Source of the DNA: Streptococcus cristatus ATCC 51100
Lineage (GTDB): Bacteria; Bacillota; Bacilli; Lactobacillales; Streptococcaceae
NCBI RefSeq assembly: GCF_011612585.1
Contig: NZ_CP050133.1
Span: forward strand, 806,001 to 870,000
Direction of reading: 5' to 3'
DNA length: 64,000 nucleotides
In this document: one piece after another, positions 30,438-41,482 of the stretch
Position numbering within the stretch: position 1 is the stretch's first letter
Layout of the letters: each line of letters starts with the position of its first letter
Translations under genes and position numbers: made by a program
Notes under the pieces: model-generated
Told to the model about the DNA's origin: nothing
Database searches by the model: none
What the model saw: only the letters and a program-made list of their open reading frames with translations

Positions 30438-30465
30438 AAAGAATGGATGTAAAAATCCATTCTTT
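30438..30465. repeat. Left copy of the 28-bp terminator flanking the IS
   Basis: A palindrome, AAAGAATGGAT / ATCCATTCTTT around GTAAAA, lies right after etrx and right before the IS end. The identical 28 bases recur in direct orientation at 32005-32032. Shape and T run are those of an intrinsic terminator for etrx. Confidence 0.85.
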
Positions 30466-32004
30466 CAGATTGAAGACAAAGTCCTTAGAAGACACTTTTC
30501 TAAGGGCTTTTCTTTTTGTAAAGTCGTATAATAGAGGTGAGAAGAATTGTGAGGTATTCTCTATGTTTCACAAAGAAAAACCTGATTATCATCGCTGCCA
30601 ATATGGCTTCTATACGATCGACGAATTGGTCCCAGAGGATCACTTTCTTCGCCAAGTGGATTCAAAGCTTGATTTTGATTTTATCTATGACTTGGTAGAA
30701 GACACCTATAGTCCAGATAATGGTCGTCCTAGTCTCGATCCTGTCATGTTAGTCAAAATCTCTTTGATTCAATGTTTTTATGGCATTCGCTCCATGCGCC
30801 AAACCATTAAAGATATTGAAGTAAATGTAGCTTATCGTTGGTTTCTTGGACTAAGCTTGGATGACAAGGTCCCTCATTTTACCACCTATGGAAAGAATTA
30901 CAGTCGTCGTTTTCAAGATAAAGAATTAATTTCAGAGATATTTTCGCGAGTGCTCCATCAAGCTTTATGTGCTGGCTTAATTGATCCTTCGGAACTATTT
31001 GTGGATGGTACTCACATCAAAGCGGCAGCTAACAGTCACAAATATCGTAAGAAAATGGTTGCCCAACAAGCTAAATTTATGAGTGAGCAATTGGAAGTTG
31101 AGATTGATTTAGATAGGAGGAAACATGAAAAAAAGTCCTTAAAGCCCGCAAAAGAAAGCGAGGCTAAAGAAAAGAAAATCTCAAGGACAGACCCAGAGAG
31201 TGGCTGGTTCCACAAGGGTCAACACAAGGAAGTATTTGCCTATTCTGCCCAGGTAGCTTGTGACAAGCATGGTTGGGCACTAGCTTATAGTGTTGAAGCA
31301 GGAAATGTACACGATAGTCAGGCTTTCCCTGCCCTTTTTTCAAAGATAGAAGCTTTCTCCCCACGCTACATTATTGCGGACTCAGGCTATAAGACCCCAG
31401 CTATTGCTCATTATTTATTAGAGCGAAACATCATCCCTGTCTTTCCCTATACCCGCCCCAAGGGTGTAAAAGGGAACTTAAGGCCCGGTGATTTTGTTTA
31501 TGATGCCTTCTATGACTGTTACCTCTGCCCAGAGAACCAAGTGTTAACCTATCGCACGACGACCCGAGCAGGCTACCGTGAGTATAAGAGTGATCCAAAA
31601 GTATGTGTCGCCTGTCCCCTATCATCAGTTTGTACCCAGAGCCAGAATCAGCAGAAAGTCATCACAAGACATGTATGGAAAGATGACCTTGAATTTTGTG
31701 AAGAGATTCGCCACAAAAGAGGGATGAAGGAGCTTTATAAGAAGCGCAAGGAAACAATTGAGCGACTCTTTGGGACTGCTAAGGAATATCATAACTTGAG
31801 ATACACCAGAGAGAAAGGAAAGTCCAAAATGGAAGATAAGGTTGGGCTTACTTTGGCGTGTTTGAATCTTAAAAAACTAGTAAAAATGAGGGTGGACAAG
31901 CCTTTTTATTTTGTTCAAATGACCATTATTCTATCAAAAGATGAAATATTAGCCTGACAAACAGAAAAAGACAAACACCATTTGGAATGTTTGTCTTCAA
32001 TCTG
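30466..32004 (+). mobile_element. IS1182-family insertion sequence
   Basis: A 1539-bp element bounded by perfect 15-bp inverted repeats (CAGATTGAAGACAAA at 30466-30480; its complement at 31990-32004). It carries one intact transposase. Just inside the left end a hairpin (CCTTAGAA / TTCTAAGG, then CTTTTC) could block read-through from outside. The flanks are 28-bp direct copies of a palindromic terminator. It appears intact and possibly active. Confidence 0.9.
30563..31957 (+). CDS. IS1182-family transposase
   Basis: DDE transposase of 464 residues. The start at 30563 follows GAGG; the frame reading back to 30443 crosses the IS end and is not used. Visible are the N-terminal IS1182-type domain (GRPSLDPVMLVKISLIQCFYG), catalytic Asp in LFVDGTHIKA and IIADSGYK, and Glu in KKRKETIERLFG. 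A Cys-rich zinc-like knot (CYLCPEN, CVACPLSSVC) lies between. No frameshift or stop is seen. Confidence 0.93.
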   Translation: MFHKEKPDYHRCQYGFYTIDELVPEDHFLRQVDSKLDFDFIYDLVEDTYSPDNGRPSLDPVMLVKISLIQCFYGIRSMRQTIKDIEVNVAYRWFLGLSLDDKVPHFTTYGKNYSRRFQDKELISEIFSRVLHQALCAGLIDPSELFVDGTHIKAAANSHKYRKKMVAQQAKFMSEQLEVEIDLDRRKHEKKSLKPAKESEAKEKKISRTDPESGWFHKGQHKEVFAYSAQVACDKHGWALAYSVEAGNVHDSQAFPALFSKIEAFSPRYIIADSGYKTPAIAHYLLERNIIPVFPYTRPKGVKGNLRPGDFVYDAFYDCYLCPENQVLTYRTTTRAGYREYKSDPKVCVACPLSSVCTQSQNQQKVITRHVWKDDLEFCEEIRHKRGMKELYKKRKETIERLFGTAKEYHNLRYTREKGKSKMEDKVGLTLACLNLKKLVKMRVDKPFYFVQMTIILSKDEILA

Positions 32005-32046: not shown

Positions 32047-33279
32047 TTAAGCACTAGCGCCAGATGTTGCATCGGCATCTCCACCGCCGTGACCACCGCC
32101 AGTATCTGAAGCACCAGAAGTGGCATCGGCTGCTGCAGCTGCAGGAGCAAAAGGACCACTTCCTCCAACCAAGCGTTGACCAGTTGTTTTTAGATACCAA
32201 TCTAGCCAAGGTTGGAAGTTGAAGACGATTTCGTTGATACCAGCGTAGGATCCGTCAGGATAGTACATTGCTTGGTAGTTGTGGGTATTGATAACACCTG
32301 CTGGTGAGCCCGGCACGATTGTACGAACGTACTCTTGATCACCGTTACGAAGAACACCAACTACCCATTCTACGTTCTTCATGCGAGCAGCAGGAAGAGA
32401 GTTGTGTAGAGTTGAGAGACGGCCACCTGATTGGGATGGTACACGTTTGGCAAACATAGTGTCCGGATCTTGATGAGCGTTGTTATAGTAAAGGAACTGG
32501 TTGTTATCATCTGCATAAGTCAATTCAAACGGCATAGCCTTTAAGAACATGTCGATTTGGTTAACAGTCAGGATACCATGGTCAAGCTTGACATAGGTAT
32601 CGCCAGAAACAGCACCAACAGCTTTTGCAGCTTTTTCTACCCATTCTGGATCGTCAGGGTCAACTTCTGTGATGGTTGTTGCGATTGGGTTCGTGACATC
32701 TAAGTCTTCAGGAGCAATTGGTTTAGGTTTTTTCAATTTTGAGACTACCTCAACATATTTTACAAAGTTATCTAAGCAAGATTCAAGGAATTTAACAGTT
32801 CCTTCGTTTGTGATGTTGCCTTCATTATCAAAAGCTTCTTTCGCTTTACCAAGAAGGAATTCATTTCCTGGTAACGTATAAGCATTGACACCTGGAGCAT
32901 CCAAGATCTTACGCAAATGTACTTGGGCACGAGACGTTCCTTGGTCGTAGTAGGAAGCTCCCACAATCATGACAGGCTTGCTTTCAAATGGGTGAACTTC
33001 ATAAGAGAGCCATTCAAGGACGCTCTTGAGAGCTGCTGTAATGGTATGGTTGTGCTCAGGAGTAGCAATGATGACACCATCAGCGCGCGTGATGCGGTTG
33101 TACAAAAGGCGTAGCTGGAAGGATTCGTCCCATTTTTCATCTTGATTAAAGAGTGGAACTTCATCAATTTCCAAAACTTCTAATTCAAATTTCAGTTTAA
33201 ATTGTTTTCTGATATATTCTAGTAATTTACGGTTGTATGATTGGTCTGCATTTGAGCCGACAAGTCCAACAAATTTCAT
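32047..33279 (-). CDS. FMN reductase-like protein with two C-terminal flavinylation motifs
   Basis: A 410-residue protein without signal peptide. Residues 1-190 are an NADPH-dependent FMN reductase (flavodoxin-like) domain: GSNADQSYNRK, TPEHNHTITAALKSVLEWLS. Residues about 245-370 look like a PAS-type domain similar to those of DUF438 proteins (FELTYADDNNQFLYYNN). The tail holds DATSGAS twice (385-391, 403-409), separated by a Gly/His-rich spacer. This fits the D-x-x-S/T-G-A-S/T site to which ApbE attaches FMN through the last Ser or Thr. apbE is in the same operon. Function inferred: electron transfer with bound and covalent flavins. Confidence 0.8.
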   Translation of the reverse strand: MKFVGLVGSNADQSYNRKLLEYIRKQFKLKFELEVLEIDEVPLFNQDEKWDESFQLRLLYNRITRADGVIIATPEHNHTITAALKSVLEWLSYEVHPFESKPVMIVGASYYDQGTSRAQVHLRKILDAPGVNAYTLPGNEFLLGKAKEAFDNEGNITNEGTVKFLESCLDNFVKYVEVVSKLKKPKPIAPEDLDVTNPIATTITEVDPDDPEWVEKAAKAVGAVSGDTYVKLDHGILTVNQIDMFLKAMPFELTYADDNNQFLYYNNAHQDPDTMFAKRVPSQSGGRLSTLHNSLPAARMKNVEWVVGVLRNGDQEYVRTIVPGSPAGVINTHNYQAMYYPDGSYAGINEIVFNFQPWLDWYLKTTGQRLVGGSGPFAPAAAAADATSGASDTGGGHGGGDADATSGASA

Positions 33280-33301
33280 GTGATTCTTTCCCTTCTAATT
33301 C

Positions 33302-33910
33302 TTACAAATTTTCCCAGTCAAAGTTTTCTGCTTCTTGTTGAAGAAGTGCTTGGGCGCTTGATAATTTTTCTGTAATTTTAACAAACAGACGGAAGTCGTC
33401 AAAAAGAGCGTCTAATTTTTGAATGGTTTCAAGATCAATCAAGTCCCCATTTTTATCAAAGGCTTGAAGTGAGTGAGAAAGTAGGAATTCAGAACTCGGC
33501 ATAACAGAGGCCTTGAGCTCTGGAGAATCCAAAATTTGACGGAGTTGCAGTTGGGCACGAGACGATCCTAGTGTTCCATAAGAAGCCCCTGTAATCATCA
33601 CTGGTTTTCTAAGCAAAGGATAGATACCGTAAGACAACCAAGCCAAGGCGCTCATGAGAGCAGCTGGGATGGAGTGGTCGTATTCAGGTGTTCCGATGAT
33701 AACACCATCCGCTGCTTCAATTTTCGCAGCGATTTCTTTAACGATTTCTGGCACTTGCATATCTGCCGGTTTGTTGAAAATAGGAATATCCTTGATTTCA
33801 ATCAACTCGATTTCTGCTTTATCAGCGAAATGCTTTTGCATATATTGAAGGAGTTGGCGGTTGGTTGATTTCTTTGAATTTGTACCAACTAGACCGATGA
33901 ATTTTAACAT
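33302..33910 (-). CDS. NADPH-dependent FMN reductase family protein
   Basis: A 202-residue flavodoxin-fold reductase: FMN phosphate loop GTNSKKSTNRQ, then GTPEYDHSIPAALMSALAWL and GASYGTLGSSRAQ. It is paralogous to the first domain of the next protein and lacks the PAS-like part and tail. I use the ATG at 33910 with AAAGGA upstream; a longer frame overlaps apbE with no site. The 22-base gap to the downstream gene implies one transcript. May supply reduced flavin. Confidence 0.88.
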   Translation of the reverse strand: MLKFIGLVGTNSKKSTNRQLLQYMQKHFADKAEIELIEIKDIPIFNKPADMQVPEIVKEIAAKIEAADGVIIGTPEYDHSIPAALMSALAWLSYGIYPLLRKPVMITGASYGTLGSSRAQLQLRQILDSPELKASVMPSSEFLLSHSLQAFDKNGDLIDLETIQKLDALFDDFRLFVKITEKLSSAQALLQQEAENFDWENL

Positions 33911-33929
33911 AGTAGGTTCCTTTCTGGAT

Positions 33930-34868
33930 TTAGGATAAGATTTCTGGGCTGAGACCAGATGAATAAAAAATTTGATGATTTTCTGTAATAACGAAGGCTT
34001 CGATTCCATTTTCTTGCTCGACTTTTTCTAAGATAGAAGTAGGACTTTCCCCAAATAAACGGGTTGTCCATATTTCACCATCGACTGATTTTGATGAAAC
34101 AATCGTGAGACTAGCTAGCTGATTGTCGATCGGATAACCTGTGGTGCGGTCAAAAATATGATGATAGACCCTGCCGTTAACTTGCAGTTTTCTTTCATAT
34201 ATTCCTGAGGTCACGACAGACTGATCCTGAACGGACAGAAGAGCTAGGTTATTTCCCCGTGGCAGACTTGGATTTTGAATGCCAATCCACCAGCAACGAT
34301 TATTTTTTTCATTTTGACCAATGGTTAAGATATTTCCACCAAGATTGATGAGGGCAGAGGTGACACCTTTTCCTCTTAGAAAAGCAGCGATTTTATCTGC
34401 GATATAGCCTTTGGCAAGGGCGCCTAAGTCGATTTTCATGCCTTCCATTGTCAAAAAGACACTGGAGGCAGCTGCATCTAACTCGATACACTCAGGGTCA
34501 GTGAGTGCCAGCGCTTGCTTGATTTCTTTGGGACTGGGAACTTTCGCATCCGCAAAGCCTATCCGCCAAGTTTGAACCAAGGGACCTAAGGTAATATTGA
34601 GATGACTGTCTGGAGCGAGACTATGCTTTTTTCCCAACTCAATCAGCTCAAACAGATCAGGATGGACGCAGACGGTATGTTTACCAGCAGCGTGATTGAT
34701 TTGCATGAGCTCAGAGCTGTCATCATTTGCACTAAAACGCTTTTCGTACAATCTAAGAAGTGAAAACACTTGATCCAGAAGACTGTCAGCATCTTCATGG
34801 AGAATCGAAATAGTAATAGTTGATCCCATTAAATGGATGGATCTAGACTTAAGATCCACTTTTATCAC
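33930..34868 (-). CDS. apbE: FAD:protein FMN transferase ApbE
   Basis: Transfers FMN from FAD to a Ser or Thr in target proteins. About 310 residues with family motifs HLMGSTITI, KIDLGALAKGYIADKI, LINLGGNILTIG and HHIFDRTTGYPID. There is no lipoprotein signal, unlike many extracellular-acting ApbEs, so it should act in the cytoplasm, where its likely target (two genes downstream) also is. The start is uncertain: GTG at 34868 sits too near AAGG, GTG at 34859 a little far. Confidence 0.92.
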   Translation of the reverse strand: MIKVDLKSRSIHLMGSTITISILHEDADSLLDQVFSLLRLYEKRFSANDDSSELMQINHAAGKHTVCVHPDLFELIELGKKHSLAPDSHLNITLGPLVQTWRIGFADAKVPSPKEIKQALALTDPECIELDAAASSVFLTMEGMKIDLGALAKGYIADKIAAFLRGKGVTSALINLGGNILTIGQNEKNNRCWWIGIQNPSLPRGNNLALLSVQDQSVVTSGIYERKLQVNGRVYHHIFDRTTGYPIDNQLASLTIVSSKSVDGEIWTTRLFGESPTSILEKVEQENGIEAFVITENHQIFYSSGLSPEILS

Positions 34869-34903: not shown

Positions 34904-34932
34904 AGTATACCAGAAAGATACCGTTTTCACAA
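34904..34932 (-). promoter_or_regulatory. apbE operon promoter with a near-consensus cre
   Basis: On the minus strand TTGTGA (34932-34927), 17-bp spacer, TATACT (34909-34904) with TGG before it. TGAAAACGGTATCT (34929-34916) matches the cre consensus except the last base and spans -35 and spacer. Confidence 0.65.
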
Positions 34933-35035
34933 TTGTAAATATATATTATTTTCAGAAAAATTGAAATTTTTTGCTTAAATTTATGAAGAAATCGAATTTA
35001 TTTGCCATATTTTTAAAAATTCTGAGCATATATCT

Positions 35036-35064
35036 TGTAAACGCTAACAGAAACATGATATACT
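35036..35064 (+). promoter_or_regulatory. nox promoter with a consensus cre
   Basis: TGTAAACGCTAACA (35036-35049) fits TGWNANCGNTNWCA throughout. TATACT (35059-35064) has TGA before it as an extended -10, and the cre overlaps the -35 position (TTGTAA/TGTAAA). Confidence 0.75.
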
Positions 35065-35101: not shown

Positions 35102-36481
35102 ATGAGTAAAATTGTTGTAGTTGGTGCTAACCACGCAGGTACTGCATGTATCAACACTATGTTGGATAACTTTGGTCATGAAAATGAAGTCGTTGTATTT
35201 GACCAAAACTCAAATATTTCATTCCTAGGTTGTGGAATGGCGCTTTGGATCGGTGAGCAAATTGACGGTGCTGAAGGCTTGTTCTACTCTGATAAAGAAA
35301 AATTGGAAGCAAAAGGTGCTAAAGTTTACATGAACTCACCAGTTCTTTCAATCGACTATGACAACAAAGTTGTTACAGCAGAAGTTGAAGGAAAAGAGCA
35401 CAAAGAATCTTATGACAAATTGATCTTTGCGACTGGATCTACTCCAATCTTGCCTCCAATCGAAGGTGTTGAAATTGTCAAAGGTAACCGCGAATTCAAG
35501 ACAACTCTTGAAAATGTTCAATTTGTTAAGTTGTACCAAAATGCTGAAGAAGTTATCAACAAACTTGCTGATAAGAGCAAACATCTTGAGCGTATCGCTG
35601 TTGTTGGTGGTGGTTACATCGGTGTTGAGCTTGCCGAAGCCTTCGAGCGTCTTGGAAAAGAAGTGGTGCTTGTGGATATCGTAGACACTGTGTTGAACGG
35701 CTACTATGATAAGGACTTCACTCAAATGATGGCTAAGAACTTGGAAGACCACAACATCCGCTTGGCTCTTGGCCAAACTGTAAAAGCAATTCAAGGTGAT
35801 GGCAAAGTAGAACGCTTGGTAACAGACAAAGAAACATTTGATGTGGACATGGTTGTTCTTGCAGTTGGTTTCCGCCCTAACACAGCTCTTGCTGATGGTA
35901 AGATTGAACTCTTCCGCAACGGTGCCTTCCTTGTAGACAAGAAACAAGAAACATCAATCCCAGGCGTTTACGCAGTAGGTGACTGTGCGACTGTTTATGA
36001 CAATGCTCGTAAAGACACTAGCTACATCGCACTTGCTTCAAACGCTGTTCGTACTGGTATCGTTGGTGCTTACAACGCTTGTGGTCATGAACTTGAAGGA
36101 ATCGGTGTTCAAGGTTCAAATGGTATCTCAATTTACGGACTTCACATGGTTTCAACTGGTTTGACTCTTGAAAAAGCAAAAGCAGCTGGCTACAACGCTA
36201 CTGAAACAGGCTTTAACGACCTTCAAAAACCAGAATTCATGAAACATGACAACCACGAAGTTGCAATCAAGATTGTCTTTGATAAAGACAGCCGTGAAAT
36301 CCTTGGTGCTCAAATGGTATCTCATGACTCATCCATCGGTATGGGAATCCACATGTTCTCACTTGCTATCCAAGAGCATGTGACAATTGACAAGTTGGCT
36401 TTGACAGACCTATTCTTCCTGCCACACTTTAACAAACCATACAACTACATCACAATGGCTGCACTTACAGCTGAAAAATAA
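35102..36481 (+). CDS. nox: NADH oxidase, water-forming
   Basis: Flavoenzyme that reduces O2 to water with NADH, supporting aerobic NAD+ recycling. The 459 residues show the FAD-binding [13 protein letters not shown], redox-active Cys44 in [10 protein letters not shown] (its presence marks the four-electron, water-forming class), NADH-binding [17 protein letters not shown] and the second FAD motif [11 protein letters not shown]. It is divergent from the apbE operon. AAAGGTGG lies upstream. Confidence 0.95.
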
Positions 36482-39396: not shown

Positions 39397-40269
39397 ATGA
39401 AAAAACTTGGAATTGTCTTATTGTCAACAGCTATTTTACTGACTGGCTGTGCTGCTAATCAAAAATCGAATACTAGTGCCAGCAGTTCGGAAGCTAAAAC
39501 CAGTCTATCGGCCTCTGACCAGAAAGCTTTGGATAAGGCAACAGCAGAGTATAAAGCCTTTGTACAGAAAGAAATTGATCAATTATTGACGGATACGGAG
39601 AAATTCAGAGATACGCTCAAAGAAGGCAAGCTTGATGAAGCTAAGAAAATGTATCCACTAATTCGTATGAGCTACGAGCGTTCAGAGCCGATTGCCGAAA
39701 GCTTCGGAGAGTCCGATGTGAAAATTGACTTCCGCTTAGCTGACTATGTGGATGAAAACAAGACCGAAGAAGGTTGGTCAGGCTTCCACCGGATTGAAAA
39801 AATTCTGTGGGAAACTAATACAACGACTGGTACAGAGAAATATGCAGACCAGTTGATCAATGACATCAAAGAATTAAAGGCTAAAATCGCGACTGTTGAG
39901 GTTACGCCAGATATCATGTTGACTGGTGCAGTTGACCTCCTTAACGAAGTGGCGACCAGCAAGATTACTGGTGAGGAAGAAATCTTTTCACATACGGATT
40001 TGTATGACTTCCGTGCCAATATTCAAGGGGCAGAAAAGATTTTCGAACTCTTTAAACCTTTGATTGAGAAGAAAGATGAAAAACTGGTAAAAAGTATAGA
40101 AACTGAGTTCAAGAATGTTAATAGTTTGTTAGACAAGCACATGACGGATTCTAAGAATTATAAACTTTATACCGAATTGAGCAAGGAAGATACTAAAGAG
40201 CTAGGAGAAGCTGTCACAAAACTGGGCGAGCCTCTCTCTCAAATGGGTATCATCCTAGATGGGAAGTAA
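39397..40269 (+). CDS. efeO: EfeO/EfeM-type iron-binding lipoprotein
   Basis: Extracytoplasmic iron-binding component (M75/imelysin-like) of an EfeUOB system. It has 290 residues: lipobox LTGC (Cys18), a Ser-rich linker, then the all-helical domain with the metal-binding GFHRIEKILWE (HxxE). It has no N-terminal cupredoxin part, so it is the short EfeM form. First gene of efeO-efeB-efeU-tatC-tatA, with AAAGGAG before the ATG. Confidence 0.9.
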   Translation: MKKLGIVLLSTAILLTGCAANQKSNTSASSSEAKTSLSASDQKALDKATAEYKAFVQKEIDQLLTDTEKFRDTLKEGKLDEAKKMYPLIRMSYERSEPIAESFGESDVKIDFRLADYVDENKTEEGWSGFHRIEKILWETNTTTGTEKYADQLINDIKELKAKIATVEVTPDIMLTGAVDLLNEVATSKITGEEEIFSHTDLYDFRANIQGAEKIFELFKPLIEKKDEKLVKSIETEFKNVNSLLDKHMTDSKNYKLYTELSKEDTKELGEAVTKLGEPLSQMGIILDGK

Positions 40270-40273
40270 GAAC

Positions 40274-41482
40274 ATGACCAAGGACGAAAAATGGTTTAAT
40301 AAAAAAATGGATCGTCGGGAATTTCTTAAAAAAGCAGGGATTGGAGGCGCAGGCTTAGCACTTGGTGTCTCCAGTGCATCTGCTTTTTTCGCTAATCAAG
40401 CGAAAGAAGACAAAAAATTAGCTGACGGTGATGAAGAAATCAGTTTTTACGGTGAGCATCAAGCTGGCATCACAACAGCCATGCAAAAGAATATCTATTT
40501 TGTCATCCTGGACTTACATACGACGGATAAAGAGACCATTATCCAGATGTTCAAGGACTGGACCGCTTACAGTGAAAAGTTGGTCAATGGAGATTTAGTC
40601 AAAAAAGATGGTTCTAATGCCCTCTTGCCACCTACGGATACTGGAGAAACGGTCGGACTCAACCCTTACCGACTGACCTTGACCTTTGGCGTCTCCGCTT
40701 CTTTTCTGAAAAAAATGGGCTTGGAGGATAAAAAGCCTAAGGAATTTCGCGATCTGCCTCCTTTCCCTAAGGAACAACTGAAAGAGAAATATACTGGCGG
40801 TGATATTGTCATTCAAGCTTGCGCAGATGACGAGCAGGTGGCTTTTCATGCCGTTCGCAATTTGGTTCGTAAAGCACGAAATGCTGTCACCATGAAATGG
40901 AGTCAGGCTGGCTTTGCTGCTATAGGCGATCGTATGTCTACTCCCCGCAATCTATTTGGTTTTAAAGACGGCACGGCCAATGTCACCAAGGAGAAAGATT
41001 TTGACAAGGTGGTTTGGTGCGACAGCAAGGACTGGATGAAGGGTGGCTCTTATATGGCTGTCCGCCGAATCCAGATGTTCCTTGAGACTTGGGATCGGAC
41101 CAATTTGCAAGAGCAGGAAAACACCTTTGGTCGTTATAAGGATAGCGGAGCGCCCTTTGGTAAGAAGAATGAATTTGACGAGGTAGACTTGGACTTGCTT
41201 CCAGTTGATGCACATGTGCGACTGGCCAAAGAAGTCGACAAGCCCCTCTATCGCCGTTCCTATTCTTATTCAGATGGTATTGATGAAACAACGGGTCAAT
41301 TTGATACAGGTCTGCTTTTTATCTCTTTCCAAAAGGATCCCGACAGCTTTATCAAGGTGCAGACCAATCTTGGAGCACAGGATAAGATGAATGAATATGT
41401 CACCCATGTGGGTAGTGGCTTGTTTGCTTGCTTCGGCGGTGTCAAAAAAGGAGAATATCTTGGTCAGAAATTATTTGAATAA
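40274..41482 (+). CDS. efeB: Tat-exported Dyp-type peroxidase EfeB
   Basis: Heme peroxidase of the iron-uptake system, probably oxidising Fe2+ at the surface. It has 402 residues. The twin-arginine signal is MDRREFLKKAGIGGAGLALG (Arg14, Arg15). The Dyp motifs follow: GFKDGTANV (the GxxDG catalytic Asp) and the proximal heme-ligand His in DAHVRLAK. I start at ATG 40274 after GGGAAG; an ATG at 40259 overlaps efeO. tatC-tatA in the same operon export it folded with heme. Confidence 0.94.
   Translation: MTKDEKWFNKKMDRREFLKKAGIGGAGLALGVSSASAFFANQAKEDKKLADGDEEISFYGEHQAGITTAMQKNIYFVILDLHTTDKETIIQMFKDWTAYSEKLVNGDLVKKDGSNALLPPTDTGETVGLNPYRLTLTFGVSASFLKKMGLEDKKPKEFRDLPPFPKEQLKEKYTGGDIVIQACADDEQVAFHAVRNLVRKARNAVTMKWSQAGFAAIGDRMSTPRNLFGFKDGTANVTKEKDFDKVVWCDSKDWMKGGSYMAVRRIQMFLETWDRTNLQEQENTFGRYKDSGAPFGKKNEFDEVDLDLLPVDAHVRLAKEVDKPLYRRSYSYSDGIDETTGQFDTGLLFISFQKDPDSFIKVQTNLGAQDKMNEYVTHVGSGLFACFGGVKKGEYLGQKLFE

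Follow-up and report, generated by a model that had tools for sequence, protein, structure and literature searches.

In a window of 64,000 nucleotides from Streptococcus cristatus ATCC 51100 (contig NZ_CP050133.1, positions 806,001 to 870,000), apbE and two genes here called FMNr and FPT form an apparent three-gene operon on the minus strand, with short gaps and plausible ribosome-binding sites (Table 1). An initial annotation of the window had placed apbE, a small flavin mononucleotide (FMN) reductase and a 410-residue protein in one operon, and their order and strand are as it described. The apbE product matches the Pfam family ApbE (E-value, E, 6.5e-78) and PDB entry 7esa, a flavin adenine dinucleotide (FAD):protein FMN transferase (E 1.8e-67), with which it aligns over the conserved HHIxDxxTGYP region, as expected of the ApbE family fold; we take this region (HHIxD..TGYP) to have a catalytic meaning. 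FMNr matches Pfam FMN_red (E 2e-35) and is 42% identical to the FMN_red domain of FPT. Its start is most likely at 33910, preceded by the ribosome-binding site GAAAGGAAC and giving 202 amino acids (aa), rather than that of a 235-aa open reading frame (ORF) overlapping apbE.

Table 1. The apbE-FMNr-FPT operon, parts of FPT and nearby features (positions in the window)
Feature	Position	Strand	Description
apbE	33930..34868	-	cytosolic FAD:protein FMN transferase, 312 aa, GTG start
FMNr	33302..33910	-	small FMN_red protein, 202 aa, predicted heterodimer partner (HcrA/FRed-like)
FPT	32047..33279	-	410 aa, FMN_red + PAS_10 + flavinylation tail
FMN_red domain of FPT	32839..33279	-	residues 1-147; Pfam E 2.6e-34
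PAS_10 domain of FPT	32215..32556	-	residues 242-355; Pfam E 2.2e-20
Disordered tail of FPT	32050..32145	-	residues 379-410; pLDDT below 50
Flavinylation motif 1 of FPT, DATSGAS	32107..32127	-	residues 385-391, target Ser391
Flavinylation motif 2 of FPT, DATSGAS	32053..32073	-	residues 403-409, target Ser409
Promoter-like site upstream of apbE	34904..34932	-	TTGTGA-17-TATACT, TG before second hexamer; consensus scan only
Terminator-like hairpin 3' of FPT	31967..31998	-	consensus scan only
Cre-like site (CcpA) TTGTAAACGCTAACA	35035..35049	+	between apbE and nox; overlaps nox promoter-like site
nox	35102..36481	+	H2O-forming NADH oxidase, divergent neighbour, outside operon; NCBIfam NOXase_Strep E 9.7e-230

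The AlphaFold2 model of FPT, built from 48 sequences, has a mean predicted local distance difference test (pLDDT) of 84, which drops below 50 in what we regard as a disordered C-terminal tail. In Foldseek comparisons, the FMN_red domain resembles ChrR-type reductases (3svl, template modelling score (TM), by target, 0.87-0.88) and the PAS_10 domain resembles 2qkp, the C-terminal domain of S. mutans SMU_1151c (TM 0.86-0.89). The FMN reductase domain, PAS-like domain and flexible tail of the initial annotation are all recovered, and so are its two DATSGAS copies, found at the exact residues given for them, with Ser391 and Ser409 as the targets. Both copies fit the published flavinylation motif, D-x-x-[ST]-G-A-[ST] (PMC12052999). 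FPT contains neither FMN_bind (PF04205) nor FAD_binding_2 in Pfam searches. In a relative from another genome (L012, G056), the FPT frame continues in frame for some 320 residues past a two-motif tail, reaching 737 aa, either as a genuine fusion or through loss of a stop codon.

To place FPT among its relatives we compiled a first set of 80 Lactobacillales loci, for which 69 of the 83 other-genus loci of an order sample of 295 genomes were read, and a second set with the best 80 of at least 542 relatives from named organisms, which include Enterococcus, Vagococcus, Trichococcus, Oceanobacillus, Gracilibacillus, Virgibacillus and Furfurilactobacillus. In line with the initial annotation, which saw no export signal on ApbE or FPT, a simple hydrophobicity test detected no signal peptide or lipobox in FPT, FMNr or ApbE, with TlpA and EfeO from the same window as positive controls (2.25-2.54). 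Likewise, the 122 ApbE ORFs of both locus sets, taken untrimmed, reached at most 1.67 in this test and showed no lipobox.

Tail motifs were counted in the strict form given above and in a relaxed form, D..[STA][GS]A[ST]. The FPT was full-length in 159 of the 160 loci (L171 was dropped as short), yielding 134 distinct proteins, with some organisms shared by the two sets. At least one relaxed motif occurs in 133 of these 134 FPTs and at least two in 128, with a range of one to seven copies (none in one protein, one in 5, two in 66, three in 43, four in 18 and seven in 1), while 104 contain at least one strict motif. The final motif ends four or fewer residues from the C-terminus in 128 of the 134, and the spacers, whose length varies, have a high content of Ala, Glu, Val, Thr, Ser, Pro and Lys. 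Only 4 of 26,800 shuffled tails reached two relaxed motifs and, as judged from sequence, the tail motifs of FPT exceed chance. A homologue search for this tail with neighbouring apbE, proposed in the initial annotation, thus returned the motifs in nearly all FPTs and apbE in the flanks of 56 of the 80 Lactobacillales loci (up to 7 kb) and 66 of the 80 named loci (up to 5 kb). Homologues lacking both tail and apbE were not found among the FPT-type proteins, only among shorter, PAS-less FMN_red pairs (L248, L249 and L251).

Within Streptococcus, two strict motifs are present in all 30 closest loci, and 10 of 11 further loci contain two or three motifs, the other (L110) having one. Codons were compared in 41 loci with 38 distinct tails, chosen for having a strict motif, a choice that in part imposes the constancy of positions 1 and 4-7; the comparison does add synonymous change at these positions, including TCN and AGY serine codons at Ser409, and the presence of Ser, not Thr, at positions 4 and 7. 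Of 413 motif copies, duplicates included, 148 have Ser and not Gly at position 5; D-x-x-S-S-A-S tails of this sort occur in Enterococcus and Trichococcus. Because a variant with this Gly replaced by Ala still gave about 50% flavinylation (PMC12052999), the Ser-for-Gly copies may, by analogy, still be substrates. A far motif variant closes the FPT tail of Limosilactobacillus fermentum (L278, CP033372.1), which ends with DxxASAS-type repeats (DASASAS, DADASAS).

The S. cristatus genome (2.03 Mb, one contig) yielded a single ApbE match, that of the operon, and no FMN_bind domain (PF04205), even with E as high as 10. Scanning its DNA for sequences that encode D-x-x-[ST]-G-A-[ST] retrieved 19 sites, two of which are those of FPT. 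Seven fail once the codons are read, and the other ten were inspected in eight stretches: a collagen-like surface protein accounts for three, a 139-residue frame that occurs in two copies and is not protein-like for two, and short frames (19 to 49 residues) for four, and the remaining site codes for no motif. From this reading of the genome, FPT is the sole credible flavinylation substrate.

We also compared the distribution of FPT and ApbE, taking as a full FPT a best E below 1e-90 (1e-100 given for the Streptococcus sample), so that counts reflect E-values and not intact frames. In the Streptococcus sample, FPT is present in at least 161 of 197 genomes and at least one ApbE in 192; among the 161 are seven copies that are broken or split (G161, G109, G125, G134, G014, G015 and G077) and one with a single internal stop (G064). 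Among the matches listed, the only FPT-positive, ApbE-negative Streptococcus is G161, whose FPT is disrupted, showing an internal stop and two frames. In the order sample, 120 genomes contain a full FPT (83 from other genera and 37 Streptococcus) and all 120 contain ApbE, while none of the 31 ApbE-less genomes has a full FPT. The baseline for these figures is 264 ApbE-containing genomes out of 295, the genomes are related, many contain a second, longer ApbE, and the one counted is not necessarily the cytosolic one. Co-occurrence supports, without proving, a dependence of FPT on ApbE. Flavinylation of the FPT tail is highly likely because of the motif match, the sole ApbE, the lack of FMN_bind and of any other credible substrate, the co-occurrence with ApbE, and the existence of flavinylated relatives in Lactococcus.

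FMNr lies directly before FPT in 79 of the 80 Lactobacillales loci (the exception is L110) and in all 80 named loci. In a midpoint-rooted tree of 57 FMN_red domains, a branch with support 97/99 separates FPT and the N-terminal domains of HcrB-like proteins (24 rows with close kin) from FMNr and HcrA-like proteins (33 rows), and FMNr, HcrA-like proteins and a tail-less pair (pair A) group together with support 100/97. The HcrAB label on these loci was assigned by architecture; for instance, the HcrB-like protein of L123 combines FMN_red, FMN_bind and FAD_binding_2, and apbE is near three of the five HcrB-like loci. FMNr seems to be to FPT as HcrA-like is to HcrB-like proteins, both pairs apparently sharing one old duplication. 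A 288-aa FMN_red+FMN_bind fusion (L126:12604-13470) is a third way to attach a flavinylation site to this reductase family. HcrA and HcrB form the NADH:hydroxycinnamate reductase of L. plantarum, in which HcrA stabilises HcrB and a heterodimer was proposed (PMC10295242), and FRedA/B of L. johnsonii is an obligate heterodimer modulated by the PAS protein LjPAS (Valladares 2015, PMC4500961). Given the conserved gene pair, the split in the tree and these relatives, FMNr and FPT are likely to form a heterodimer, of which FMNr, left without a role in the initial annotation, is very probably the partner subunit. The soluble, ApbE-modified electron-transfer protein of that annotation stands, by sequence and comparison, in being cytosolic and having two tail sites; its single bound flavin may instead be up to two per heterodimer.

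The same parts also occur in split form. Lactococcus-type and Lactobacillus-type are labels of our own for genomes, and the match of the latter to the L. johnsonii system is by resemblance. In four Streptococcaceae loci (L117-L120), a tail with 2-4 motifs is attached to an FMN_red protein of 302-337 aa and a separate PAS_10 protein of 162-165 aa is encoded in the cluster, with apbE between the tailed FMN_red gene and the PAS_10 gene in L117-L119. Fused (L114, L115) and split (L117, L118) forms are both present under a single genus label (g81). In four of six Lactobacillus-type genomes searched (L269, L270, L271 and L273), it is a separate PAS_10 protein of 244-246 aa that contains two to three strict motifs. 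As for the other two, the PAS-tail gene of G456 (L272) contains a stop and its remaining frame shows one motif, and G412 (L276) showed nothing closer than a shorter PAS-like protein, more distantly related and with a single motif. ApbE is present in all six genomes, and no tail motif was found in the Lactobacillus-type reductase pairs L252, L253 and L256. Three of the separate tailed proteins weigh 27.8-28.1 kDa, and the genes for the L253 pair, whose products are 41% identical, are 11 nt apart; this fits L. johnsonii, where LjPAS has 28 kDa and the FRedA/B genes are 12 bp apart, with products 41% alike (PMC4500961). L250 encodes an FMN_red protein with a variant tail, apbE and a partner, with no PAS in view. 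The tail-less, PAS-less pairs L248, L249 and L251 have no apbE in view, and two of the three genomes with such pairs (G237 and G321) lack any ApbE, which fits a link between tail and ApbE. In L273 and L276 the PAS-tail gene is followed by genes for DUF3290 and DUF421/YetF membrane proteins (Pfam for L273 only).

The initial annotation had listed O2, a small unsaturated acid or a quinone as electron acceptors, a list that can now be narrowed. FRedA/B acts as an NADH oxidase that forms 0.56 H2O2 per NADH and has a Km for FMN of 20 μM; quinones are disfavoured, as FRedA/B reduced none (PMC4500961). The S. cristatus genome contains no full-length FAD_binding_2 protein, only four partial matches covering at most 107 of 414 positions. 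O2 is the leading candidate here because the studied relatives make H2O2 and the genome lacks a fumarate-reductase-type FAD protein; by this analogy, that O2 is the main acceptor in this Streptococcus is about as probable as not. In three lactobacillar loci (L091, L094 and L278), a fumarase and an FAD_binding_2-type protein of 463/464 aa (Pfam on the L278 copy) are encoded beside FMNr-FPT, and in L094 these genes share a strand and are 31, 18 and 1 nt apart, a probable operon. From this adjacency, fumarate may be an electron sink in some lactobacilli. A role of FPT itself as a fumarate or cinnamate reductase was rejected, as it has no FAD_binding_2 or FMN_bind domain.

Architecture, disordered tail, motif conservation, ApbE co-occurrence and the conserved gene pair were all computed here, and the explanation that we somewhat favour for them is a soluble, NADH-oxidising FMNr-FPT complex with tethered tail flavins. 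FMNr and the FMN_red domain of FPT would form a heterodimer taking electrons from NADH on non-covalent FMN, and the cytosolic ApbE would attach FMN covalently to Ser391 and Ser409 of the floppy tail. The tail FMNs would stand in for the free FMN that the related FRedA/B needs as a substrate, sparing the free FMN of the cell; they would load electrons at the heterodimer and deliver them to the acceptor, which here would be O2, giving superoxide or H2O2, and in some lactobacilli fumarate, through the stand-alone FAD fumarate reductase whose gene neighbours FPT. The PAS_10 domain, in turn, might gate heterodimer assembly or tail docking. The idea that the tail flavins act as tethered carriers, a form of captive substrate, we infer with only a slight preference over the contrary, and the PAS role is likewise inferred.

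Several points weigh against this reading, at the level of the motifs, the history of the genes, the place of the tail flavins and the PAS domain, and the expression of relatives. First, the strict motif is absent from 30 of the 134 distinct tails, some of which may be poor substrates. FPT is broken or split in the seven or more Streptococcus genomes named above (L209-L230), a recurrent loss, and it is therefore dispensable. In the tree, the tail-bearing reductases of L117-L120 are on the FMNr/HcrA side, on a long branch, and not with FPT; the split form is thus not just a divided FPT. The Lactobacillus FRed pair is also beside the FMNr/HcrA side, on long branches and in a place that the tree tool flagged as unsure. 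The tails without a strict motif, with L080 lacking even a relaxed one, together with the direct flavinylation data coming from Lactococcus relatives only, would fit a tail that is not flavinylated in vivo, its motif having another role and ApbE another target. This we consider barely credible, because the motif is kept with synonymous codon change in the 38 distinct Streptococcus tails (with their built-in selection bias), ApbE is linked to FPT and co-occurs with it, the genome offers no other credible substrate and the Lactococcus relatives are flavinylated.

Second, from AlphaFold models of the Lactococcus FMN_red proteins, the tail flavin was placed near the FMN_red flavin site, and would so be a catalytic cofactor rather than an extra carrier (PMC11334425). 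Each tail FMN might then fold back into an FMN_red catalytic site, either in the same chain or in the partner, ApbE making the normal cofactor covalent and loss-proof. In agreement with this, FRedA/B binds FMN with a dissociation constant of about 2 μM and was purified partly empty, with 0.58 FMN per dimer (PMC4500961), and tails with two motifs, the commonest class here (66 of 134), match the two sites of a heterodimer. However, 62 of the 134 distinct tails have three or more relaxed motifs, up to seven, and exceed two sites per heterodimer; besides, in the Lactobacillus type the tail is on the separate PAS protein and the reductases of L252, L253 and L256 are tail-less. We thus regard fold-back of the tail flavins as unlikely.

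PAS domains often bind flavins, and the PAS_10 fold of FPT was confirmed against 2qkp, so FPT could be mainly a redox or flavin sensor, whose PAS domain would bind a tail flavin and whose redox state would control the enzyme or another protein. LjPAS does alter the rate of FRedA/B assembly; its in vitro effect was only to slow assembly, and none was seen in a two-hybrid assay (PMC4500961), which also counts against a gating role. A sensor is quite improbable, however, because no signalling output domain is fused to FPT or conserved beside it, and a single sensor flavin needs no variable, multiple motifs. An XRE-type regulator is found in 29 of the 80 loci, none of them in Streptococcus, and a DUF454-like membrane protein in 10 of the 80 (Pfam was run on one member of each).

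Third, the expression of relatives favours low-oxygen, fermentative NAD+ regeneration as much as an oxidase role. In S. mutans, SMU.1088-1090, orthologous by annotation only, are raised in a ccpA mutant, as are the adhE-type SMU.148, the fumarate reductase-like SMU.180, pyruvate formate-lyase and NADH oxidase (PMC3610829); in the pneumococcus, SPD_1301/1302 are down 2.2-fold in an anaerobically grown pflB mutant (PMC5327383). As for L. johnsonii, the oxygen control of LjPAS is contradictory, being repressed anaerobically according to the abstract and with a transcript that drops 3-fold on aeration according to the results (PMC4500961). The S. mutans and pneumococcal data would agree with an anaerobic sink, regenerating NAD+ in mixed-acid fermentation through a partner that reduces fumarate or another unsaturated acid, with O2 reduction incidental. 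The fumarase and FAD fumarate reductase genes of the three lactobacillar loci, the grouping of the FMNr/FPT pair with HcrAB-like proteins and the cre-like site at 35035-35049 point the same way. Nevertheless, the partial FAD_binding_2 matches of the S. cristatus genome leave no such partner in sight, no neighbour past the trio that would point to an acceptor is conserved across the 80 loci, and a strict catabolite-responsive element (cre) was found upstream in only 5 of 79 loci, so that we hold an anaerobic sink to be rather unlikely.

The same cre count, against 21 of 4,693 tiles (coding tiles, which are a biased background), led us to reject CcpA control as a general feature. In the window itself, a scan with a cre consensus that we assumed to hold gave three matches against 1.5 expected by chance, and 17 of 100 shuffles gave three or more, not beyond chance. 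Promoter-like sites were not above the shuffled level either (10 in the region against 7.6 in shuffles, standard deviation 2.3). From the co-regulation with pfl, we also considered a low-potential donor to the pyruvate formate-lyase activase, which is unlikely on general thermodynamic grounds.

Around the operon, a 504-aa transposase-like ORF, recognised by eye at 30443-31957 on the plus strand, separates it from thiol-redox genes of CcdA/TlpA/MsrAB type and suggests a local rearrangement. On the other side, at 39397-41482 (+), an Imelysin (EfeO-like) lipoprotein and a DyP-type peroxidase with a weak match to a twin-arginine translocation signal are encoded, an Efe-type iron/haem system close to nox and apbE. 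Elsewhere, the whole trio is found on a Lactococcus lactis plasmid predicted to be conjugative, near Crp/Fnr regulator genes (L112, one record), and, flanked by IS1216 copies, on a plasmid of Enterococcus faecium (L113, one record). Two loci from another family (L032 and L033; f4 g20) encode an FPT about 90% identical to that of the window, which suggests horizontal transfer of the trio. FPTs very like those of Bacilli also appear in records labelled Roseburia sp. (L131) and Sedimentibacter sp. (L136), which could be mislabelled or contaminated, or reflect transfer to Clostridia.

In all, this electron-transfer operon is real and conserved, and its product is probably flavinylated. More broadly, but only tentatively, at somewhat less than even confidence, we propose that the H2O2-related FMN reductases and PAS proteins of lactic acid bacteria make up a single machine based on flavinylation, with an HcrAB-type heterodimer for NADH input and exchangeable outputs. 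In it, the PAS protein, regarded as a sensor, would be a multi-FMN carrier with one to seven covalent flavins on a disordered tail that has moved between reductase and PAS protein, and ApbE would, in S. cristatus and similar streptococci, exist for one substrate. The proposal gives a job to the cytosolic ApbE of streptococci; at least one ApbE, not always necessarily cytosolic, is present in 192 of the 197 genomes, and both PMC3610829 and PMC11559097 still assign the streptococcal protein to thiamine synthesis. Work on protein flavinylation is thereby connected with work on the H2O2/NADH-oxidase physiology of lactic acid bacteria, and the PAS protein of L. johnsonii is predicted to have lacked its cofactors when it was studied. 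Short disordered tails with several flavins could serve as natural electron wires, and the ApbE motif may be wider than described, allowing Ser in place of Gly.

The initial annotation knew of no described streptococcal system of this shape; its kind, at least, has been described, in flavinylated Lactococcus FMN_red proteins and in FMN_red-PAS fusions. What is new here is that the flavinylated FMN_red proteins and the FRedA/B-PAS system look like one system. We found no paper joining the two literatures or describing the streptococcal trio, in a search that mostly left aside subscription papers and preprints and is weak evidence of absence. Huang, Meheust, Barquera and Light (2024) described FMN_red proteins, mostly from Firmicutes, that are associated with ApbE and have one or two motifs at the C-terminus, and showed that two from Lactococcus (WP_021723379.1 and WP_205872264.1) contain covalent flavin in a Ser/Thr-dependent manner; the set-up is given as co-expression of the cognate apbE in section 6 and as addition of purified Listeria ApbE to lysates in the methods (PMC11334425). 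Compared by their description, these proteins share with FPT the PF03358 domain, an unstructured C-terminal extension with motifs, an apbE neighbour and a source in Firmicutes. The main text of PMC11334425 does not contain the terms PAS, heterodimer, Streptococc, H2O2 or hydrogen peroxide; both the title and the discussion of that paper treat flavinylation as mainly extracytosolic.

FRedA/B-LjPAS and the FPT operon have in common two co-encoded FMN_red chains and a PAS_10 module. Here, in contrast, PAS domain and tail are fused to one reductase and apbE is in the operon, while ApbE is not mentioned in the main text of PMC4500961; LjPAS, made in E. coli without added ApbE, was probably unflavinylated as studied. 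The same paper names the PAS-FMN reductase fusions Lp2732 and EF1227 in a figure legend and cites LJ_0548/0549 (Hertzberger 2014), and EF1225 of E. faecalis is an ApbE (PMC7074142). With HcrA/HcrB, the FMNr/FPT pair shares a small FMN_red partner and an FMN_red domain for NADH input; HcrB-like proteins continue with FMN_bind and FAD_binding_2, and FPT with PAS_10 and a motif tail. The PAS_10 fold is shared with SMU_1151c, a DUF438-type protein (PDB 2qkp, 27% identity, TM by target up to 0.89), whose solved chain contains the PAS domain only, with no FMN_red or motif tail. Unlike FMN_bind carriers such as NqrC and RnfG (PF04205), FPT has no FMN_bind fold around its motifs. Finally, as in the cytoplasmic ApbE system of Klebsiella pneumoniae (PMC12052999), an ApbE without a signal peptide would act on a soluble cytosolic redox protein, the target being in that case a fumarate reductase and here a protein without FAD_binding_2.

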